From positions 1 through 52,393 of the IMG/VR virus record IMGVR_UViG_3300035228_000496: a stretch of DNA of 52,393 nucleotides; one strand, written 5' to 3'. This document shows positions 33,856 to 51,572 of the stretch, in pieces (positions within the stretch are counted from its first letter, which is position 1; every line of letters starts with the position of its first letter). The notes below the pieces were generated by a model. It searched no databases. It was not told where the DNA came from and was given only the letters and a program-made list of their open reading frames with translations. The translations under genes were made by a program, and so were the position numbers. The DNA comes from a virus.

Positions 33856-36800
33856 ATGCCAGCAGAAAGAGAAAATAAATTTGCTAGAGCTAGGCATCAT
33901 TTGAGGTCCACTCATTTGTTAGAAGGTCCTACAAATAATACTTCTGGATATTTTACAATTGAACCAGAAGTCTTTGAAACTATTCCAGCAGTTCGTGCTG
34001 CCCTAAATTTAGGGGCAGATGATTCCTCTCTAGTAGGAAAAGACACTTCTGGTTTATTTGATAATTTAGGTAATTCATTGGCAGAAGGTCCACCAGGAGA
34101 TAGTAGTTATATTCTAGGACCAATGGTTAGTGTTTACTTTCCAGATGGTGATTATAGTGCTATTGGATATATTCAAAAAGATACAAGAAAAGTAATTAAT
34201 CTTGCTAGAATCCCAGGCACAGTTAGTGGTTGGGGTATTGGTGGTAATGTTGAAGGATTTACAAGTTATAGTCAACTTACGTTAGAACAGGCTCTATGGT
34301 ATAGGGATAAATTAATTAATGGAAATACATCTTCATATAGAGTATTTTATATTGGTGTTTTTGAGCAATTAAATTCCGAAAATCCAAATGTTACCGATGA
34401 CAGTGCAGGAGTTGATGTTGATGAATATGGTAGATGGATAGGAGATATTATTGATGCTGGATATGTTATAGATCCAGAAACAAAGAAATTAGTTAAAAAA
34501 GGTAAAAAGGGTCCAGATCCTGATATGCCTCCTGGTATTGCAAACCCAATCGTTCAGAAATTAAAGGATAAACTTAAGAAAGGTGAAAATTTAACTATAG
34601 ATGACTTCCCATCGGCGGCAGATTTTTCTGCGTTTAAAAATGGTGGAGGAAATGCTGCACTGAGAGATGGAAAAACTATTGGTGACGTAATTAGACAAGG
34701 TATCATAAACATTAATGGTGCTGATAGTGGTGCTAGACTTGCAGATTTTGATGATTATATGGGTCCAGCATTTGGAAATGATTCTGTAGCAAATAGTGAA
34801 AGACAAAAAGCAGTAGATGCTAGAAATGATGCGATTTATGATTATTGGAAAAATAATTATAAACCAGACAAGTCTGTTAATCCAGATGGTCTTACTCAAA
34901 AACAAATAGATGATATGCCGGACTGGTATAAGGACGTATCCACTCATCCAGATCCAAAAAATTATACTGGAGGATTTAAAGACACTCCTGTTGGTCAGGC
35001 AGTTAATGACTTTATGTATGACCCAACTCACGGGTGGTGGAGACAGGCAGTTTTAGATTTTGGTGTAGGAGCTATTTCGCAAGCTGTTGGTAGACCAGGT
35101 GGTAGTATGCCAACACCAAGAAGACCAACAATTGGTGCTACTGGTATGAATCAACCAGGATACAGAGCAATTACTGGTGGTGAAAGATTCCAAGTTCCAC
35201 AAGGAGGTGGATTAATAGGAAAAGGTTCTAGACCAATATTGGGTAGAGGTGCATATTCTGCTGACCAAGTTGGTCAAGTTGGACCTGGTGGACTAAGACC
35301 TGGTTCTGGTGCTTCTAGATATGCACAACCTGGTGGTGGTGTTGTTGGTAGTATTGTTCCACCTGGCGCAAGAGGAACAAGAATTATTGAACCACAGAAA
35401 GTTGTTTCAGGACCAACTTTTGATAAGGGTCGAGATCTTGCATCAAGAGTTGCTAAAGGACAATATCCTAACAGTTCTTCGGCAAGTCGGACAAGACAAG
35501 ATATGATTGATGCAGGATTTCCTAAAGGACAATCCTCAATTTCTTATGATCAGTTGCCACAAAAACCATCTATGAAACCAAATGGCAAGTCTTTTGATGC
35601 TTTTTCTAGAGCAGCATTAGGGGCTGGTGCAGCATTTGGAGCGTCAGAACTTCTTGCACCAAGTCCCGCTGAGGGAGCAAGAAACTTATCTTCAAATGAA
35701 GGACAATCTAGATTGCAAGGTAAACTGGGATCTGAATTTTCTCTTGGAGATAAAATTCAAGCTGGTGGAGATCACGTAAGATATCCAATTTTACAAAATG
35801 GAAAACCTGTTATCGATCCAAGAACTAATAAACCAAGAGAAGTTGGTGGTGGTGTTAGAGGTGGTAGAGTATCTGGTTCATTTGAATCGGGTATTGATGA
35901 TTTTGTACGTGATTATGAGAGTGGATTTAAAGGAGATGTTCAGAAGGGAAAACCATCTGGTACCACACGATTTGATAATACAACTAAAAAACCTATAACT
36001 AGAACTGCCTCTAAAGTACAACCCAAACCAACTAAAAGAACGACAATTAGGTCGATGCCTGCTAGTATGATGGGCAAACCTCCAGTATCCAAACCTCAAG
36101 TTCAACGACCTGAAGTAAATCCACTGAATACAGATCCATATAAGTTATATAATCCGTCTAAAGGATCAAGTCAAAATCTTCAAAAGTCTCTTGGTAGATT
36201 TAATAGAGGATATATGCCGAAGGGTCCTATAAGATTCTCTCATGAACTTGAGGGTCAAATGCTTGCAGAAAATCGCAGCAGAATTTTGCGTGAAGTTAAA
36301 AAACCCTATCAGTTACCAGAAGTAAAGACTGAAAAAGTAAAGTATCGTCCTAAAGTTAATAAAACGGAAACAAGATCTGTTGGCGATGGTCTTATGAAGA
36401 AAGCAGAAGTTCCAACGTCTTTCAAGAGACTTGAGGATAGTATGTGGAAAAAGCAAGATCGTCATTGGAATGAGAGACACTCTCAAGAAAGAAAGAATAT
36501 GATTCTAGATACAGTTGGAACTTCAGATCATGCTTGGGAGTATATTACAGATCGTAGTGCATCTGGCAATGATGCAAAGATGTATGAGCACTTTGGTAAT
36601 GGTATAAAAAATCAAATTATTGAAAAGAAAAAGATTGGTAATGACTATATTATCAAAATGTATAATGAACAGGGAAAGGTTGAAACTGTGACCCAATCAA
36701 TTCTTAATGAAAGACTTCAAAGACAATATGAATTAAAAGAGCAAGAAACTATCTACGCTCCTAAAGATCCTTTAGTTGCAAGAATTAGGAACAAGTTGTA

Positions 36801-37083
36801 TTCACAAATAGATTATCCAAATAAACCAGCAAAACTTGGATATCCAGATGAACCACCTAAACAAATGATAGGTGGATATCATCCAGATTTTGGAGATAGA
36901 CATTCTTATTACAATAGATTAGATAGACATAGTGCGGATACTATGCAGAATGCTCCTACTAAAGATTTAAAAATTGATGGGAAAGTTCAAAAACAAACAA
37001 CAAGGCAAAAAGCATTGAATATTGTTAATAATATAAGATCCGCAAAAGCAGAGTATGCAAAGGCAACAAAGAAAAATAAATAG
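33856..37083 (+). CDS. Large unrecognised late protein, possible virion component
   Basis: 1075 residues that I do not recognise. Visible parts: a charged start (RENKFARARHHLRSTHLLEG); a compact segment at 85-175 with VSVYFPDGDYSAIGYIQKDT and LTLEQALWYRDKLI; a Lys/Pro hinge near 210-235; a helical stretch with DARNDAIYDYWKNNY and MPDWYKDVSTHPDP. A Gly/Pro/Arg-rich low-complexity zone follows (about 415-520), then a hydrophobic Ala/Gly helix at about 583-604 (AALGAGAAFGASELLAP), then a basic Pro-rich region. The last ~220 residues are charged, with WKKQDRHWNERHSQERK and a GYPDEPPK segment. The late promoter and block position between gp14 and gp15 suggest a virion or assembly protein. Link to the upstream protease (substrate, partner) is inference. 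Confidence 0.6.
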   Translation: MPAERENKFARARHHLRSTHLLEGPTNNTSGYFTIEPEVFETIPAVRAALNLGADDSSLVGKDTSGLFDNLGNSLAEGPPGDSSYILGPMVSVYFPDGDYSAIGYIQKDTRKVINLARIPGTVSGWGIGGNVEGFTSYSQLTLEQALWYRDKLINGNTSSYRVFYIGVFEQLNSENPNVTDDSAGVDVDEYGRWIGDIIDAGYVIDPETKKLVKKGKKGPDPDMPPGIANPIVQKLKDKLKKGENLTIDDFPSAADFSAFKNGGGNAALRDGKTIGDVIRQGIININGADSGARLADFDDYMGPAFGNDSVANSERQKAVDARNDAIYDYWKNNYKPDKSVNPDGLTQKQIDDMPDWYKDVSTHPDPKNYTGGFKDTPVGQAVNDFMYDPTHGWWRQAVLDFGVGAISQAVGRPGGSMPTPRRPTIGATGMNQPGYRAITGGERFQVPQGGGLIGKGSRPILGRGAYSADQVGQVGPGGLRPGSGASRYAQPGGGVVGSIVPPGARGTRIIEPQKVVSGPTFDKGRDLASRVAKGQYPNSSSASRTRQDMIDAGFPKGQSSISYDQLPQKPSMKPNGKSFDAFSRAALGAGAAFGASELLAPSPAEGARNLSSNEGQSRLQGKLGSEFSLGDKIQAGGDHVRYPILQNGKPVIDPRTNKPREVGGGVRGGRVSGSFESGIDDFVRDYESGFKGDVQKGKPSGTTRFDNTTKKPITRTASKVQPKPTKRTTIRSMPASMMGKPPVSKPQVQRPEVNPLNTDPYKLYNPSKGSSQNLQKSLGRFNRGYMPKGPIRFSHELEGQMLAENRSRILREVKKPYQLPEVKTEKVKYRPKVNKTETRSVGDGLMKKAEVPTSFKRLEDSMWKKQDRHWNERHSQERKNMILDTVGTSDHAWEYITDRSASGNDAKMYEHFGNGIKNQIIEKKKIGNDYIIKMYNEQGKVETVTQSILNERLQRQYELKEQETIYAPKDPLVARIRNKLYSQIDYPNKPAKLGYPDEPPKQMIGGYHPDFGDRHSYYNRLDRHSADTMQNAPTKDLKIDGKVQKQTTRQKALNIVNNIRSAKAEYAKATKKNK
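37075..37082 (+). promoter_or_regulatory. Late promoter element AATAAATA
   Basis: AATAAATA, overlapping the last codons and TAG stop of the upstream gene, 21 bases before the ATG at 37104. Confidence 0.7.
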
Positions 37084-38649: not shown

Positions 38650-39081
38650 ATGAATAATAGTTATGAGTCCATTGATAATGCGCTTGATATTGAAAGTAGC
38701 ATTGTTGAATCAAAACCAGTAAAACCTGTTCCCCAAAAACAGGAAAGAAATGATATAACGAAGGATTATGAATATACTCGTGCTAATTTATATTCTCTCA
38801 TAGAAAAAGGTCAAGAAGCAATAAATGGAATTATGGAACTTGCAGGAGAAAGTGCAAGTCCTAGAGCATATGAAGTTGCTGGTCAATTAATTAAGAGTGT
38901 TGCAGATACAACTGATAAGTTGGCAGATCTTCAGAAAAAATTGAAAGACTTGGAAGAAGATAATAGTAAAAAGAGTCCAAGTAATGTTACTAACAATGCA
39001 TTGTTTGTTGGATCCACATCAGAATTATCAAAACTACTCAAGCAAGGTTTTCTAAATAATAATGATGAGAATTCTGAGTAA
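38650..39081 (+). CDS. 16: gp16-like small terminase subunit
   Basis: 143 residues (T4 gp16: 164). A central helical hairpin, KDYEYTRANLYSLIEKGQEA, then SASPRAYEVAGQLIKSVADT and a coiled-coil TDKLADLQKKLKDLEED, is the family pattern. Small terminase forms rings that regulate the gp17 motor and select concatemeric DNA for packaging. In T4, gene 17 follows directly. Here a 2-kb mosaic gene is placed between, its start overlapping this stop by one base. Confidence 0.9.
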   Translation: MNNSYESIDNALDIESSIVESKPVKPVPQKQERNDITKDYEYTRANLYSLIEKGQEAINGIMELAGESASPRAYEVAGQLIKSVADTTDKLADLQKKLKDLEEDNSKKSPSNVTNNALFVGSTSELSKLLKQGFLNNNDENSE

Positions 39082-41102
39082 TGGCAAAGAAATCTTGCAA
39101 GAAAGGATATTACTATTGTAATACTGCTAAAAAATGTAAGAAGATTCCTAAGGGTTGGCATATAATGTCATCTACTGGATATTTGATGCGTGATAATGAT
39201 CATAAGGACGACCACAAGGACGACACTGAGGGTAAGAAGAGTAATGGCAATGGCAATGGTTCAAGTGGCAATGGAAATGGGAATGGGGGGTCTGATGGGG
39301 GTTCTGATGGCGGAGGAGTATCAGAATCGAAAGACCATGAAGTTGCGATGGCACAAAGCCAACTTGAAAAGTCAGCAAGAAACATCGCAAAGTTGAGAAA
39401 GGCATTAGGTAAGAAAGAAAAAAATATTCCTGCCTGGATGCAAGCAAAGATTACTGATACCGCACACGACACTGATGCCGCTGCTGGTTACGCAGATAAA
39501 ATGGATGAAGAAGTCATTGCAGAAAAACGCGACGGTAAGTCTGCTAAGTCCAAAGGTTACTCTCTCCGCGACTGGTTTAAGGGTGGTGGTTGGGTTCAAG
39601 CAGGTGGTAAGTACGATGGAAAACCATGTGCCAAACAACCAGGGCAAAAAACTAAACCATTTTGCCGTGATGCTGATGATCGAGCCAACATGAGCAAGAA
39701 AGAGAGAAGCAGAAGAGCGGCAAAGAAACGTAAAGAAGATCCAAACGCAAATAGGAAAGGTAAAGCAAACATGGTATCAGCATCTTATTCAAATTGGAAA
39801 CAAGACTTAAATCAACTAGATGAAATTGCTCCCGCTATTGCTGCTGGTGCTGCACTTGGTATTGGTGCCGGTGGAATGTATATGATCAATAAATTAAGAC
39901 AGCAAAAGAAAAAGTCTGATGAGGGACGAGGTGATGGTGGTCTAGTTGATAGACTCAATAAGCGTAAACAGATGCTACAGCAACTTGGAAACTCATTCGC
40001 ACCAGAAGGTGAAGTTGTTACCGAACGCGATGCTTGGGGTACAGGTCCTAGGGATTTTATTAAGATGGGTGGTAAGGGAGGTTTGAAGAATCCGCAGGAT
40101 CTTGAAAGAGAAAGACTGCAGAGATTAAAGAATTTGAAACCAGGAGTTAAATTAGATAAAGCACATTATGAACCAGAAGGTGAAATAGTTGATGAAGGTA
40201 AGAAAGATGCCTGCTACCATAAAGTCAAGTCCCGTTATTCTGTCTGGCCAAGTGCATATGCATCAGGTGCTCTAGTTAAGTGCCGTAAAAAAGGTGCTGC
40301 TAATTGGGGCAACAAGACCAAAAAAGAAAGTTATGAGATCTCCAACTGGAGAGATGATTTTCAGGCACTTGAATATGAGTCTATAGATATTATTAAAGCA
40401 GAACCACTGAAACCAACTAATGGTATCGACAGTAGAATGGTGGATGAATCAAGTTTAAGAAAACCTGTACCAATGCCTGAGTACAAACCAAAAGGTACTA
40501 AAAAACCTGTACCAATGCCTAAGTACAAACTAAAAGGTACTGAAAAACCTGTACCAATGCCCAACTATCCTTTACCTTTAAATCAATCTTTTGAGCAAGA
40601 TGGTGAAGTACTTGATGAAGTAAAATCTAAACAAGATAAATTGAAAGAGATCTCAAAGCAGTTAGTAGGTGCTTCTAAGATGCACGCAAAGCAATCTAAA
40701 CAAGTTGCTAAAGTTGCTGCTAATCTTGATGAAAAGTGTTGGAAAGGATATAAGAAAAAGGGTATGAAGACAATGTTTGGAAAGAGATATCCAAATTGCG
40801 TGAAAGCACACTTCTCCGATTGGAGAGCGGATATGGAACTTCAGGAAGACTGGCAGAAGTCAAACCGTAAAGACGGTGTTGATGGTATGAGTCAGAAATC
40901 CGTAAATGCTTATAAGCGTGAAAATCCAGGTTCCAAGTTAAAGACTGCCGTAACTGGTAAAGTTAAAAAAGGAAGCAAGGATGCAAAGCGTCGTTCTTCT
41001 TATTGTAGTCGTTCTAAAGGTCAGATGAAGATGCATAATATTGATTGTTCAAAGACCCCAGAAAAGAAAATCTGTAAGGCACGTAAACGTTGGAGATGTT
41101 GA
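39081..41102 (+). CDS. Basic cysteine-module mosaic protein
   Basis: 673 residues built of at least five short Cys-bearing basic modules. A (3-45): SCKKGYYYCNTAKKCKKIP, followed by an Asn/Gly/Ser linker (about 50-85). B (about 155-230): GYSLRDWFKGGGWV, GKPCAKQPGQKTKPFC, then MSKKERSRRAAKKRK. C (376-411): DACYHKVKSRYSVWPSAYAS, LVKCRKKG. D (551-576): EKCWKGYKKKG, RYPNCVKA. E (637-673): SYCSRSKGQ and KICKARKRWRC. Between them are three S-(N/D)-W-x-x-D motifs, three GE(V/I)(V/L)(D/T)E motifs, a 20-residue hydrophobic Ala/Gly helix (about 249-269) and a 14-residue tandem repeat (461-497). I recall modules like B and C in other phages and large DNA viruses as domains of unknown function (B may be DUF5872). 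It sits between gp16 and gp17. The role is unknown; DNA or core binding is suggested by charge. Confidence 0.75.
   Translation: MAKKSCKKGYYYCNTAKKCKKIPKGWHIMSSTGYLMRDNDHKDDHKDDTEGKKSNGNGNGSSGNGNGNGGSDGGSDGGGVSESKDHEVAMAQSQLEKSARNIAKLRKALGKKEKNIPAWMQAKITDTAHDTDAAAGYADKMDEEVIAEKRDGKSAKSKGYSLRDWFKGGGWVQAGGKYDGKPCAKQPGQKTKPFCRDADDRANMSKKERSRRAAKKRKEDPNANRKGKANMVSASYSNWKQDLNQLDEIAPAIAAGAALGIGAGGMYMINKLRQQKKKSDEGRGDGGLVDRLNKRKQMLQQLGNSFAPEGEVVTERDAWGTGPRDFIKMGGKGGLKNPQDLERERLQRLKNLKPGVKLDKAHYEPEGEIVDEGKKDACYHKVKSRYSVWPSAYASGALVKCRKKGAANWGNKTKKESYEISNWRDDFQALEYESIDIIKAEPLKPTNGIDSRMVDESSLRKPVPMPEYKPKGTKKPVPMPKYKLKGTEKPVPMPNYPLPLNQSFEQDGEVLDEVKSKQDKLKEISKQLVGASKMHAKQSKQVAKVAANLDEKCWKGYKKKGMKTMFGKRYPNCVKAHFSDWRADMELQEDWQKSNRKDGVDGMSQKSVNAYKRENPGSKLKTAVTGKVKKGSKDAKRRSSYCSRSKGQMKMHNIDCSKTPEKKICKARKRWRC
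40461..40572 (+). repeat. Tandem 42-bp repeat inside coding sequence
   Basis: Two full 42-base units (40461-40502 and 40503-40544) and a third partial copy (from 40545) encode KPVPMPxYKxKGTx three times in the mosaic protein. Differences are a few bases per unit, so the duplication is fairly recent or under conversion. The Pro pattern suggests an extended linker. Confidence 0.85.
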
Positions 41103-41116
41103 ATTAGGTTTTTATT

Positions 41117-42766
41117 ATGAATGAACAGTATCTTGGTAATCCAAATCTAAAAAAAGCAAATACGGCGGTCGAATTTAGCGAAGAGCAAATCATTGAATTT
41201 GTCAAGTGTAAAGAAGACCCCGTTTATTTTGCTAATAATTATATTAAAATCGTTTCTCTGGATGAGGGTCTAACACAATTCCATCCCTATGATTTTCAAG
41301 AGAAACTAATTCACAATTTTCATAATGAAAGATTTAACATCTGTAAGATGCCACGACAGACTGGTAAGTCTACGACTGTGGTATCTTATCTTCTTCACTA
41401 CGCAGTCTTTAACGATAGTGTTAATATTGGTATCCTTGCTAACAAGGCAGCAACCGCAAGAGAACTTCTCAGTAGGTTACAGACTGCATACGAGAACTTG
41501 CCTAAATGGATGCAACAGGGTATTATATCCTGGAACAAAGGATCCATGGAGTTAGAGAATGGCAGTAAGATATTGGCAGCTTCTACGTCTGCAAGTGCTG
41601 TCCGAGGCATGTCGTTCAACATTCTCTTCCTCGACGAATTCGCCTTCGTTCCAAACCATGTTGCAGACTCGTTCTTTGCATCTGTTTATCCTACTATTAC
41701 TTCTGGTAAAAACACCAAAGTAATTATTGTATCCACTCCACACGGTATGAATCATTTCTACCGTATGTGGCACGACTCCGAGAAAGGTAAAAATGAATAC
41801 ATTCCAACTGATGTTCATTGGTCCGAGGTTCCTGGAAGAGATGAAGTATGGAAAGAACAGACGATTGCTAACACATCTGAACAGCAATTCAAAGTCGAGT
41901 TCGAGTGTGAGTTTCTTGGTTCTGTCAATACCCTTATAAATCCATCAATTTTAAAGAATCTCATTTATGAAGATCCTATCCAAAGAAGTGCAGGTTTAGA
42001 TGTCTACGAGAAAGCGCAACCTGAACACAACTACCTTACTACTGTCGATGTTGCTCGTGGGTTGGGCAACGATTATTCTGCATTTATCGTTGTTGATATT
42101 ACAGAGTTTCCCTACAAGATAGTAGCGAAGTATAGAAATAATGAAATAAAACCGATGTTGTTTCCCAACATCATTCAACAAACAGCGAAGGCATATAATG
42201 ATGCTTGGGTACTAATAGAAGTCAATGATATTGGAGAGCAGGTAGCAAACATTCTCCATTATGACTTAGAGTATGAAAATATGTTGATGGCAGCGATGAG
42301 AGGTCGTGCAGGACAAGTTGTTGGGCACGGATTCTCCGGTAAAAAATCACAGATGGGTGTTAGAACAACGGCACAAGTTAAAAAACTTGGTTGTTCAAAC
42401 TTAAAAATGTTAATTGAAGATTTTAAGTTACTAACATTAGATTATGAGATAATTTCCGAACTGACTACTTTTGCTCAGAGACATAATTCTTTTGAAGCAG
42501 AAGAAGGTTGTAATGATGACCTTGCAATGTGTCTTGTCATCTTTGCTTGGTTGGTAGCACAAGACTACTTTAAGGAAATGACTGATAATGATATTCGTAA
42601 GAGAATATATGAAGAACAGAAAAATCAGATCGATCAAGATATGGCACCATTTGGATTCTTAGATGATGGCATCAATGATATGACAGGATCATTTACAGAT
42701 AAAGATGGTGACCGTTGGCATACTGATGAATATGGTGATCGAGCATATATGTGGGAATATAATTGA
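41117..42766 (+). CDS. 17: gp17-like large terminase subunit
   Basis: 549 residues (T4 gp17: 610). ATPase motifs: Walker A PRQTGKST (K84), Walker B ILFLDEF with D173/E174, and the coupling motif STPHG (206-210). Nuclease domain: catalytic Asp311 in TTVDVARGLGNDYSAF, with later acidic residues in LIEVNDIGEQ and GCNDDLAM. It pumps DNA into the prohead through gp20 and cuts the concatemer. All key residues seem present and no intein interrupts it. The ATG at 41117 follows a T-rich leader 14 bases after the mosaic gene. The next gene's ATG overlaps the stop (TGATG). Confidence 0.96.
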   Translation: MNEQYLGNPNLKKANTAVEFSEEQIIEFVKCKEDPVYFANNYIKIVSLDEGLTQFHPYDFQEKLIHNFHNERFNICKMPRQTGKSTTVVSYLLHYAVFNDSVNIGILANKAATARELLSRLQTAYENLPKWMQQGIISWNKGSMELENGSKILAASTSASAVRGMSFNILFLDEFAFVPNHVADSFFASVYPTITSGKNTKVIIVSTPHGMNHFYRMWHDSEKGKNEYIPTDVHWSEVPGRDEVWKEQTIANTSEQQFKVEFECEFLGSVNTLINPSILKNLIYEDPIQRSAGLDVYEKAQPEHNYLTTVDVARGLGNDYSAFIVVDITEFPYKIVAKYRNNEIKPMLFPNIIQQTAKAYNDAWVLIEVNDIGEQVANILHYDLEYENMLMAAMRGRAGQVVGHGFSGKKSQMGVRTTAQVKKLGCSNLKMLIEDFKLLTLDYEIISELTTFAQRHNSFEAEEGCNDDLAMCLVIFAWLVAQDYFKEMTDNDIRKRIYEEQKNQIDQDMAPFGFLDDGINDMTGSFTDKDGDRWHTDEYGDRAYMWEYN

Positions 42767-48106: not shown

Positions 48107-48757
48107 ATGAAACTTATCACAGAAGAAGTAACAAACGTACAGGTTATTACCGAAGGTACCGGTACTAACAAGAAACTGTATATTGAAGGAACTTTCCTCC
48201 AAGGTGAGATCAAGAACCGTAATGGGAGAATGTATCCTATTACAACTCTTACCAAAGAAGTAAATCGCTATTGCGAAGCTTTCGTTAATAAGGGTCGTGC
48301 TCTTGGTGAACTCGGTCACCCCGAAGGTCCTACTGTGAATCTTGACCGCGTATCTCATAAGATTACTTCTCTGGTACAGGAAGGTAATAATTTTAAAGGA
48401 AAAGCACAAATCCTTTCCACCCCTATGGGTAAAATTACTTCTTCCCTTCTTGATGAAGGTGTAATGCTTGGCGTTTCTTCCCGTGGTGTTGGTTCACTCC
48501 AAACCACAAGTGAAGGATGTAAGATTGTTGGTGAAGATTTTCAGTTAGCAACTGCTGCTGATATCGTTGCTGATCCTTCTGCACCTGATGCTTTCGTTAA
48601 TGGAATTATGGAAGGAAAAGAGTGGGTATGGGACGGAGGAATCCTCCGTGAACAACTCGCTGAACAAACCAAGAAGAGAATTAATACTCTCGTTGGTCAA
48701 AGACAACTTGAGGAGAAAAAACTCCAGTTATGGACTAATTTCTTATCAAATCTTTGA
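48107..48757 (+). CDS. 21: gp21-like prohead protease
   Basis: 216 residues (T4: 212). Motifs of the herpes/HK97-type assemblin fold: GELGHPEGPTVNLDRVSH with His71 as the probable catalytic His, and LGVSSRGVGSL with Ser124/Ser125 as the nucleophile. The start region ITEGTGTNKKLYIEGTF precedes KNRNGRMYPITTL, a family motif. The enzyme is built into the prohead core, then cleaves gp22, gp23 and core proteins, typically after a Glu in an (L/I)xE context, before DNA packaging. Confidence 0.94.
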   Translation: MKLITEEVTNVQVITEGTGTNKKLYIEGTFLQGEIKNRNGRMYPITTLTKEVNRYCEAFVNKGRALGELGHPEGPTVNLDRVSHKITSLVQEGNNFKGKAQILSTPMGKITSSLLDEGVMLGVSSRGVGSLQTTSEGCKIVGEDFQLATAADIVADPSAPDAFVNGIMEGKEWVWDGGILREQLAEQTKKRINTLVGQRQLEEKKLQLWTNFLSNL

Positions 48758-49928: not shown

Positions 49929-51323
49929 ATGCAGATGCATAATACTGAAGCTCTGCAGGAGAAGTGGGCACCCGTTCTCGATTACGAAGGAATGAATCCT
50001 ATCCAGGATTCCCATCGTAGAGCGGTTACCGCAGTCCTGCTTGAGAATCAAGAAGCAACTCTCCGTGAAGAGAGAGAATTCCTTTCCGAAGGACCAACCG
50101 TTTCCACCAACACTGGATCAAATGCAGGTTTCTCTGCTGGCGCTTCCTCACCTGTTGCTGGTTTCGACCCCGTTCTGATCTCCTTGATCAGACGTGCAAT
50201 GCCTAACCTGGTCGCATATGACCTCGCAGGTGTGCAACCAATGTCCGGACCTACTGGACTTATCTTCGCAATGCGCTCCCGTTATACTGGTCAATCCGGT
50301 ACCGAAGCGTTGTTCAACGAAGCAGACACAGCATTCGCAGGTCAGTCCGCTAACCTCAACAACTCCGATGGATTCTCCAACGGTACTGTTGGTATGGGTA
50401 CCACCACACAGCGTGGTTCTAACCCTGGCGCACTTGATCCTACTGCACCCGCAACTGGCGATGCTCAGACCTACAACGTAGGTCAGGGTATGCGTACCGA
50501 TAACGCTGAGAACCTTGGCGACGGTACTGAAGGTGCATTCAACGAGATGGCATTCTCGATCGAGAAAGTCACCGTAACCGCTAAGTCCAGAGCTCTGAAA
50601 GCAGAGTACTCCTTGGAACTGGCACAAGACCTCAAGGCAATCCACGGATTGAACGCTGAGGCTGAACTCGCAAACATTCTCTCCACAGAGATTCTTGCTG
50701 AGATCAACCGTGAAGTCATCCGTACAATCTACAACGTTGCAGAACCTGGCGCACAGGCTAACGTTGCTACTGGCGGAACCTTCGACCTCGACGTTGACTC
50801 CAACGGTCGCTGGTCTGTTGAGAAGTTCAAAGGTCTGATCTTCCAGATCGAAAGAGATGCTAACGCGATTGCACAGCGCACTCGTAGAGGCAAGGGAAAC
50901 ATGATTCTGTGTTCCGCAGACGTTGCTTCCGCTCTGACCATGGCAGGCGTACTCGATTACACCCCTGCTCTGAACTCCAACCTCAACGTTGATGACACTG
51001 GCAACACCTTTGCTGGAGTCCTCGCAGGTAAGTATCGCGTATACATCGATCCTTATTCGGCAAACGTTGCAGCATCCCAGTACTACGTTGCTGGTTATAA
51101 GGGTTCTTCACCTTATGATGCAGGACTGTTCTACTGCCCATACGTTCCTCTCCAGATGGTTCGTGCCGTTGGTCAGGACACCTTCCAGCCCAAGATTGGC
51201 TTCAAGACCCGTTATGGTATTGTTGCTAACCCCTTCGCAGAAGGAACCGACGTTGGTGCAGGCGCACTTTCCCGTAACAAGAACCGTTACTACAGACGTG
51301 TCAAGGTCAACAACCTTATGTGA
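49929..51323 (+). CDS. 23: gp23-like major capsid protein
   Basis: 464 residues (T4 precursor: 521). Conserved sequence includes WAPVLDYEGMNPIQDSHRRA at the start, then PVLISLIRRAMPNLVAYDLA and GVQPMSGPTGLIFAMRSRY, and the end IVANPF..GT and YYRRVKVNNLM. A probable gp21 site is FLSE54|GPT, which fits (L/I)xE and would remove a 54-residue propeptide. Codon choice is richer in C-ending codons than in the giant genes, as expected for the most abundant protein. The upstream gap has no clear NATAAATA; only CATAAACG (49887-49894) is close. A terminator follows. Confidence 0.97.
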   Translation: MQMHNTEALQEKWAPVLDYEGMNPIQDSHRRAVTAVLLENQEATLREEREFLSEGPTVSTNTGSNAGFSAGASSPVAGFDPVLISLIRRAMPNLVAYDLAGVQPMSGPTGLIFAMRSRYTGQSGTEALFNEADTAFAGQSANLNNSDGFSNGTVGMGTTTQRGSNPGALDPTAPATGDAQTYNVGQGMRTDNAENLGDGTEGAFNEMAFSIEKVTVTAKSRALKAEYSLELAQDLKAIHGLNAEAELANILSTEILAEINREVIRTIYNVAEPGAQANVATGGTFDLDVDSNGRWSVEKFKGLIFQIERDANAIAQRTRRGKGNMILCSADVASALTMAGVLDYTPALNSNLNVDDTGNTFAGVLAGKYRVYIDPYSANVAASQYYVAGYKGSSPYDAGLFYCPYVPLQMVRAVGQDTFQPKIGFKTRYGIVANPFAEGTDVGAGALSRNKNRYYRRVKVNNLM

Positions 51324-51395: not shown

Positions 51396-51572
51396 ATGAA
51401 AACTTTTCAACAATTTAGTGAGAGGGCACTCACTAAATCAGAAGAAGAAAAGAAAGAAGAAATTGTCAAGTCCATGAAGGACAAGAAATCTGAATTCAAG
51501 AAACGCTATGGTGATGATTGGGAAAGTGTAATGTATGCCACTGCAACAAAGAACGCTAAGAGGGTAGCATAA
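51396..51572 (+). CDS. Small charged protein with VMYATATK motif
   Basis: 58 residues, too short for many callers but well formed. It starts MKTFQQFSERALTKSEEEKK, is Lys/Glu rich, and ends YGDDWESVMYATATKNAKRV. I recall the closing YG....VMYATATK element as a recurrent tag in short and mosaic cyanophage proteins. It lies after the gp23 terminator and overlaps the next gene by one base (TAATG). The function is unknown; the motif may be an interaction tag. Confidence 0.7.
   Translation: MKTFQQFSERALTKSEEEKKEEIVKSMKDKKSEFKKRYGDDWESVMYATATKNAKRVA

Follow-up and report, generated by a model that had tools for sequence, protein, structure and literature searches.

The window analysed here is the whole of IMG/VR record IMGVR_UViG_3300035228_000496 (52,393 bases), which derives from a T4-like cyanophage. 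Its genes run in the order head closure, gp15, gp16, a cysteine-module open reading frame (ORF), gp17, an endonuclease VII-like ORF and then gp18 to gp23. The cysteine-module ORF (39081–41102, plus strand) is open throughout and encodes 673 amino acids, a polyprotein-like chain of Cys modules belonging to the PHROG 727 / T4-GC119 family. Its start ATG overlaps the gp16 stop codon (TAATG), and gp17 starts 14 nt after its end. PHROG matches confirm the flanking plus-strand genes as the small terminase subunit gp16 (38650–39081, PHROG 445) and the large subunit gp17 (41117–42766, PHROG 2), the position that a first-pass annotation of this DNA had given to a Cys-module protein. The prohead protease gp21, the presumed cutter in the interpretation below, is encoded on the same strand (48107–48757, PHROG 207, E 1e-78). 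Two further ORFs were recorded. A 1075-aa ORF 5′ of the neck genes (33856–37083) drew no PHROG match with a threshold of E 0.01, and a small plus-strand ORF 3′ of gp23 (51396–51572) starts MKTFQQFSERA, like the T4 capsid-targeting sequence (CTS) without E at position 10.

The protein is built from five basic Cys modules and one helical domain. All five Cys modules proposed in the first-pass annotation were recovered by profiles, and the protein holds exactly 13 cysteines (3+2+2+2+4 per module). M1 (aa 5–39, 39093–39197; profile match E 1e-20) carries three of them (CKKGYYYC...KKC). A sixth unit, the KDHE domain (aa 84–140, 39330–39500; profile match E 1e-34), is without Cys and helical in the AlphaFold model. 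M2 (aa 160–229, 39558–39767; Cys pair C183/C195) is homologous to free-standing M2 genes and to the C-terminal half of DUF5872. It is followed by M4 (aa 374–412, 40200–40316; C378/C401; profile match E 3e-24), M5 (aa 550–576, 40728–40808; C553/C573, with NLDE before it) and M6, which is DUF6321 (aa 591–673, 40851–41099; four Cys; Pfam match E 2e-9); all units lie on the plus strand.

Between these units, and on the same strand, lie joints of two kinds. Three carry a W-R type motif: YSNWKQDLNQLDE (aa 236–248, 39786–39824), which ends in LDE and was assigned from the sequence and motif statistics, ISNWRDDFQALEYE (aa 420–433, 40338–40379) and FSDWRADMELQE (aa 578–589, 40812–40847), directly before M6. 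The others are PEGEVVTE (aa 308–315, 40002–40025), PEGEIVDE (aa 365–372, 40173–40196), directly 5′ of M4, and DGEVLDE (aa 507–513, 40599–40619). A KPVPMP repeat of three copies with a period of 14 aa can be read off at 40461–40568 (plus strand). The chain, which would have a mass of 75 kDa, contains 145 K+R against 86 D+E (pI 9.7). Net charge per 100 aa is +16 to +24 in the Cys modules and −3 in the linkers. In the AlphaFold model of the chain (mean pLDDT 59), the modules form islands joined by low-confidence linkers.

PHROG 727 matches the protein at E 3e-76, with aa 96–427 aligned to positions 54–314 of 450. Pfam DUF6321 matches aa 600–671 with 38.3 bits against a curated cut-off of 28.5. 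M6 is the only window module matched by Pfam, and DUF5872 is absent from the Pfam scan of the protein even at E 1. The family appears as T4-GC119, a hypothetical protein within a variable gene cassette (Sullivan et al. 2010, PMC3037559), and is known by sequence only.

The modules are widespread among phages and are freely recombined. In a separate search of a phage collection, M2, M4 and M6 queries matched 275, 366 and 454 phage records, respectively, and the modules are thus not a product of chance; M1 matched 25 records. The short M5 query gave no tblastn match in this collection, and M5 was traced by profile instead. Most matched phages are cyanophages; M6 also occurs in Pelagibacter, Microcystis and Methylophilales phages, and M4 in Roseobacter phages. 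An M4 scan of bacterial and archaeal genomes gave 14 matches, every one in marine metagenome bins. These are most simply mis-binned phage contigs, and a cellular origin of M4 was rejected.

Profiles run over the fetched loci recovered 40 domain combinations, single modules included, in varying order (e.g., M1-M2-M4-M5-M6; M1-M5-M2-KDHE-M4; M2-M4-M1-M5-KDHE-M6). In 67 of the marine phage loci fetched, M2, M4 and M6 stand as individual small ORFs. In 18 loci these ORFs are found no more than 1.5 kb upstream of a terL akin to the one in locus L164 (33% identical in two of the 18), and in 54 T4-like loci fused or single modules take this place upstream of terL; all these are counts among loci chosen by module content and hence not frequencies in nature. 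In roseophage CRP-7, gp65 (DUF6321-like), gp64 (M4) and gp63 (M2-like) stand consecutively just upstream of terL (gp62). Profile comparison shows homology between fused and free M2 (probability 96.9, E 2e-10) and between M4 and a Cys-less relative (probability 96.7). Pfam DUF5872 itself covers two modules, one M4-like and one M2-like, and free-standing M2 and M4-like genes match its two halves. DUF5872 is listed in the algal giant virus CpV-BQ1 (PMC12085832), which lends some support to the first-pass statement that such modules occur in large DNA viruses. With this listing, the 40 combinations and the separate neighbouring genes, the idea of a collection of mobile modules has held up.

The cysteines are kept and lost in pairs. 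M2, M4 and M5 each have one invariant or nearly invariant pair, its members far apart. In DUF6321, C52 and C83 are invariant (60/60), while C66 and C75 are both present in 28 modules, both absent in 32 and never found singly. The M4 relative is likewise without both of its cysteines. Such paired loss with the module kept points to disulfide pairs more than to zinc sites, and disulfides would suit an extracellular particle. The basic, Cys-bearing character of the modules could also be read as that of a zinc-finger-like DNA-binding protein. We consider this highly improbable given the two widely spaced invariant cysteines in each of M2, M4 and M5 and the joint retention or loss of C66/C75, and the Cys-less M4 relative again fits disulfides better. 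Neither fold nor sequence searches found a PDB relative of DUF6321, whose model has three helices (pLDDT 77). Zinc binding, put forward for testing in the first-pass annotation, is therefore not supported, although His-assisted or intermolecular zinc sites may occur. Its description of a highly charged, DNA-associated protein stands as to charge, the modules being net positive; that charge is the one feature pointing to DNA binding. A BFVD fold search returned DUF6321 proteins and noise only, a whole-chain PDB sequence search gave only kinesin-chain matches to the low-complexity linker, and another fold search against the PDB gave no useful match.

Relatives of the window protein have been detected in virions. 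In the S-CREM2 virion proteome (Table 3 of PMC10665884), ORF160, which reads as M2-M5-M4, is represented by seven unique peptides, and ORF137, which occupies the gp16–gp17 slot and has a C-terminal DUF6321, by four peptides; the authors state that CsCl-purified particles may carry contaminants (PMC10665884). In the genome record of S-SCSM1, the ortholog (ORF29) bears the label “virion protein”. We counted 48 virion labels in that record against 45 proteins found by mass spectrometry (PMC9602691), so the label is near, and not identical to, the mass spectrometry list. Published mass spectrometry of relatives, as distinct from the window phage itself, thus comes close to establishing the family as a virion component. 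The first-pass annotation had named modules found nowhere else, or an unexpressed frame, as grounds against its reading; the modules occur elsewhere, and the frame is open, with relatives detected as proteins.

Phages of several groups (T4-like loci, L164-type loci and CRP-7) have modules beside terL, and this location, together with the strong positive charge, is what a packaging accessory factor would show. The modules would then aid terminase or attach to DNA where packaging takes place, and their presence in virions would be secondary. However, homologs lie far from terminase genes in S-B68 and S-CREM2 (gp160), versions bearing a CTS exist, and the S-CREM2 virion list is without gp16 and gp17 and includes both ORF137 and ORF160 (PMC10665884). 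We therefore regard a packaging role as improbable.

T4-type targeting sequences occur on homologous and neighbouring cyanophage genes. T4 internal proteins enter the head via a sequence of 10 residues, of which 4 and 7 serve targeting and 8 and 10 guide processing (PMC9026906); in the T4 record, IPII and IPIII start MKTYQEFIAEA and IPI starts MKTFKEF. The window protein starts MAKKSCKKGYYYC, without an N-terminal CTS. We find CTS directly on Cys-module proteins elsewhere: S-SZBM1_192 reads MKTFKQYITEA...DUF6321, locus L034 reads MKPFSQFISEA...M2...IIE/KKDACY (M4)...YSNWRDEF, and L132–L134 read MKTFxQFISEA...M2 (slashes here and below mark presumed cuts). S-SZBM1_192 is missing from the 30 detected S-SZBM1 proteins (PMC9146016), and the CTS-bearing S-SCSM1 ORF30 and S-SZBM1_191/192 are absent from the mass spectrometry lists. 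We counted 27 strict CTS starts across 0.50 Mb of T4-like loci, compared with one in an equal length (0.50 Mb) of loci from other marine phages and none in reversed sequence; the 27 comprise 13 distinct peptides, many from one small gene family, and are thus not independent.

Similar N-termini are found on virion proteins of other kinds. In S-CREM2 they occur on non-structural proteins of the virion, namely a SAM hydrolase (MKDFDSFLEE), a kinase (VKRFDAFLTE), an NMNAT-like cytidylyltransferase (MKNFSSFLTEA), a Cas9-like nuclease (PLRFASFMAEA, from residue 16), gp13 (MKDLHSFLTE) and gp136 (MQTFSMFFSE). The T4-modelled pattern [FY]xx[FYW][LIVMF]xE within the first 25 aa picks out seven S-CREM2 proteins, five of them in the virion set (Fisher p 7.5e-4 among genes without structural annotation, a descriptive value because these N-termini were seen before the pattern was written). 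Two proteins examined afterwards agree: the S-SCSM1 NMNAT (MKSFLQFLKEA) and the S-SZBM1 cytidylyltransferase (MRFRQFIIEA), each a virion protein (PMC9602691 and PMC9146016, respectively). A T4-like CTS could thus be the reason that NMNAT, SAM hydrolase, kinase and Cas9-like nuclease occur in particles. Virion-reported proteins with CTS-like starts are S-CREM2 gp6, gp12, gp13, gp14, gp136 and gp154 (L254, L256), S-SCSM1 ORF91 (L259) and S-SZBM1_140 (L280).

Several further observations concern these termini. A small conserved gene (~100 aa) starting MK(S/T/N)F(K/Q)xF(L/M)SES lies after or beside the module gene in many cyanophage gp16–gp17 slots (e.g., L001:4940-5248, L171:7548-7868 and L278:37311-37628). 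The product of L134:1085-1591 starts MKTFSEFITEA and continues with YHGTTQSRADSIKKDGF, which by eye recalls ADP-ribosyltransferase motifs; it has no Pfam match. T4 Alt is a virion-carried ADP-ribosylase. Two virion proteins have comparable ends, namely the DUF3008 protein S-SCSM1 ORF93 (L259:41626-41835; RTFKEFLEYIE*) and S-SZBM1_139 (L280:8988-10361; YSWRREMGVDE*), so targeting might also operate from the C-terminus. Stretches like GFTG(A/S)(A/S)APEGP(T/V)AGYDP in S-B68 (L004:5800-6423), S-CREM2 gp160 (L256:31342-32235) and S-SCSM1 ORF97 (L259:43121-43306) resemble the mature gp23 start (S-CREM2 gp23 GFTGAAAPGG; S-SZBM1 gp23 GPVAGFDPV).

The linkers are rich in two motifs, [L/I/V/M]-x-E and [FY]-S-[ND]-W-R, a feature that looks new. 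The first corresponds to the prohead-protease motif: T4 gp21 cuts after L/I-x-E (PMC9026906). T4 gp23 reads FLTE/AEIGG (T4 record, cut placed by the published motif), and the window gp23 has a presumed gp21 site, FLSE/GPTVS, at the matching position (LSE, 50082–50090, plus strand). In 84 non-redundant module proteins with 243 distinct module starts, 219 of these starts are preceded within 22 aa by [LIVM]xE, against 94.7±6.3 for shuffled stretches that leave shared ancestry uncorrected. Each of the six module types shows this enrichment. At the second position ahead of Glu there is a two- to three-fold excess of M, V, L and I (and H). In-silico cutting of the window protein at the [LIVM]xE joint sites leaves every module intact. 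Internal copies of the motif are avoided in M1, M2 and the helical domain and absent from M4. The clearest counter-observation is that DUF6321 does not avoid internal LxE (33 in 61 modules). The enriched joint motifs are thus putative T4-type prohead-protease sites.

Linkers contain the second motif, as S[ND]W[RK], 111 times, whereas shuffles, which likewise leave shared ancestry uncorrected, give 0.4. Among all ORFs of at least 50 aa in S-SCSM1 and S-CREM2, the W-R motif is found only in S-SCSM1 ORFs 29 and 92 and S-CREM2 gp155, all of them virion proteins (3/3, a small number). Within linkers, the strict T4 CTS pattern shows no enrichment (11 vs 27 shuffled), and the joints therefore lack the T4 form as such.

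These linkers could also belong to an uncut structural protein, that is, a flexible chain of small domains located at the head, neck or tail, with L-x-E a matter of linker style. Such a protein would be found in virions and encoded within a neck–terminase–tail operon, as this family is, and the linkers are Glu-rich, so that some L-x-E must arise by chance. Nevertheless, L-x-E is over-represented relative to composition-matched shuffles at every module type, and the same modules bear a T4-type CTS in other phages. The modules also act as small proteins in their own right, and the very variable length and module order would be odd for a symmetric part. An uncut structural protein is thus unlikely in our judgement.

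We consider it probable that the window protein is instead a polyprotein of internal head proteins, taken up by the prohead, cut by gp21, packaged and injected as basic, Cys-bearing pieces. The [FY]-S-[ND]-W-R motifs (aromatic-x-x-aromatic) would serve as the internal equivalent of the T4 CTS and bring the chain into the prohead core. Cleavage by gp21 at [L/I/V/M]-x-E in the flexible, mildly acidic linkers would then release small, basic, Cys-paired modules; these would remain beside the DNA in the head and be delivered into the cell along with it. The virion mass spectrometry of relatives and the T4-type targeting and cleavage motifs support the first-pass suggestion of an internal head protein. 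Candidate roles in the host are to coat or protect the entering DNA, or counter-defence of the kind known for T4 IPI. More tentatively, cyanophages may carry polyprotein head cargo with cassette-swapped mobile Cys modules, the same targeting code may load NMNAT, SAM hydrolase, kinase and Cas9-like nuclease, and the modules may be an injected kit common to many marine phages and to at least one algal giant virus; we see this wider picture as possible.

If true, this explains a widespread and so far unexplained marine phage gene family and accounts for enzymes such as NMNAT recurring in cyanophage virions. It also supplies a sequence rule (an MKxFxxF[LI]xE start, or [FY]S[ND]WR with L-x-E) that predicts which cyanophage proteins lie inside the head, and what cyanophages inject besides DNA becomes testable with existing mass spectra. 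A literature search found neither a T4-type CTS in cyanophages nor a Cys-module protein described as an internal-protein polyprotein; most subscription journals lay outside its scope, so the novelty is provisional.

The window protein belongs to the same family as syn9 gp114, S-SM2 SSM2_109 and S-SCSM1 ORF29 (PHROG 727 / T4-GC119), and it shares the gp16–gp17 slot with the S-SM2, syn9 and S-SKS1 members. We found these described only as hypothetical, structural or virion proteins, with no mechanism proposed. DUF6321 and DUF5872 are both Pfam domains of unknown function, and the window M2 and M4 fall below DUF5872 detection. In giant Salmonella phage SPN3US, head and ejection proteins are processed by the prohead protease in maturation (PMC10052503). 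SPN3US thus resembles what we propose, head cargo cut by a prohead protease, although it represents another phage lineage and the likeness is one of description. T4 IPI, IPII and IPIII differ from the window protein in being small proteins with an N-terminal CTS, whereas the latter is a long multi-module chain with internal motifs, Cys-paired modules, putative gp21 cleavage and no noticed sequence relation to IPI–III. Like them, however, it is a basic protein of a T4-like phage with putative L/I-x-E sites, present in virions in the case of its relatives. Homologous and neighbouring cyanophage genes, some with the same modules, carry MKxFxxFLxE, comparable to the T4 MKTYQEFIAE.
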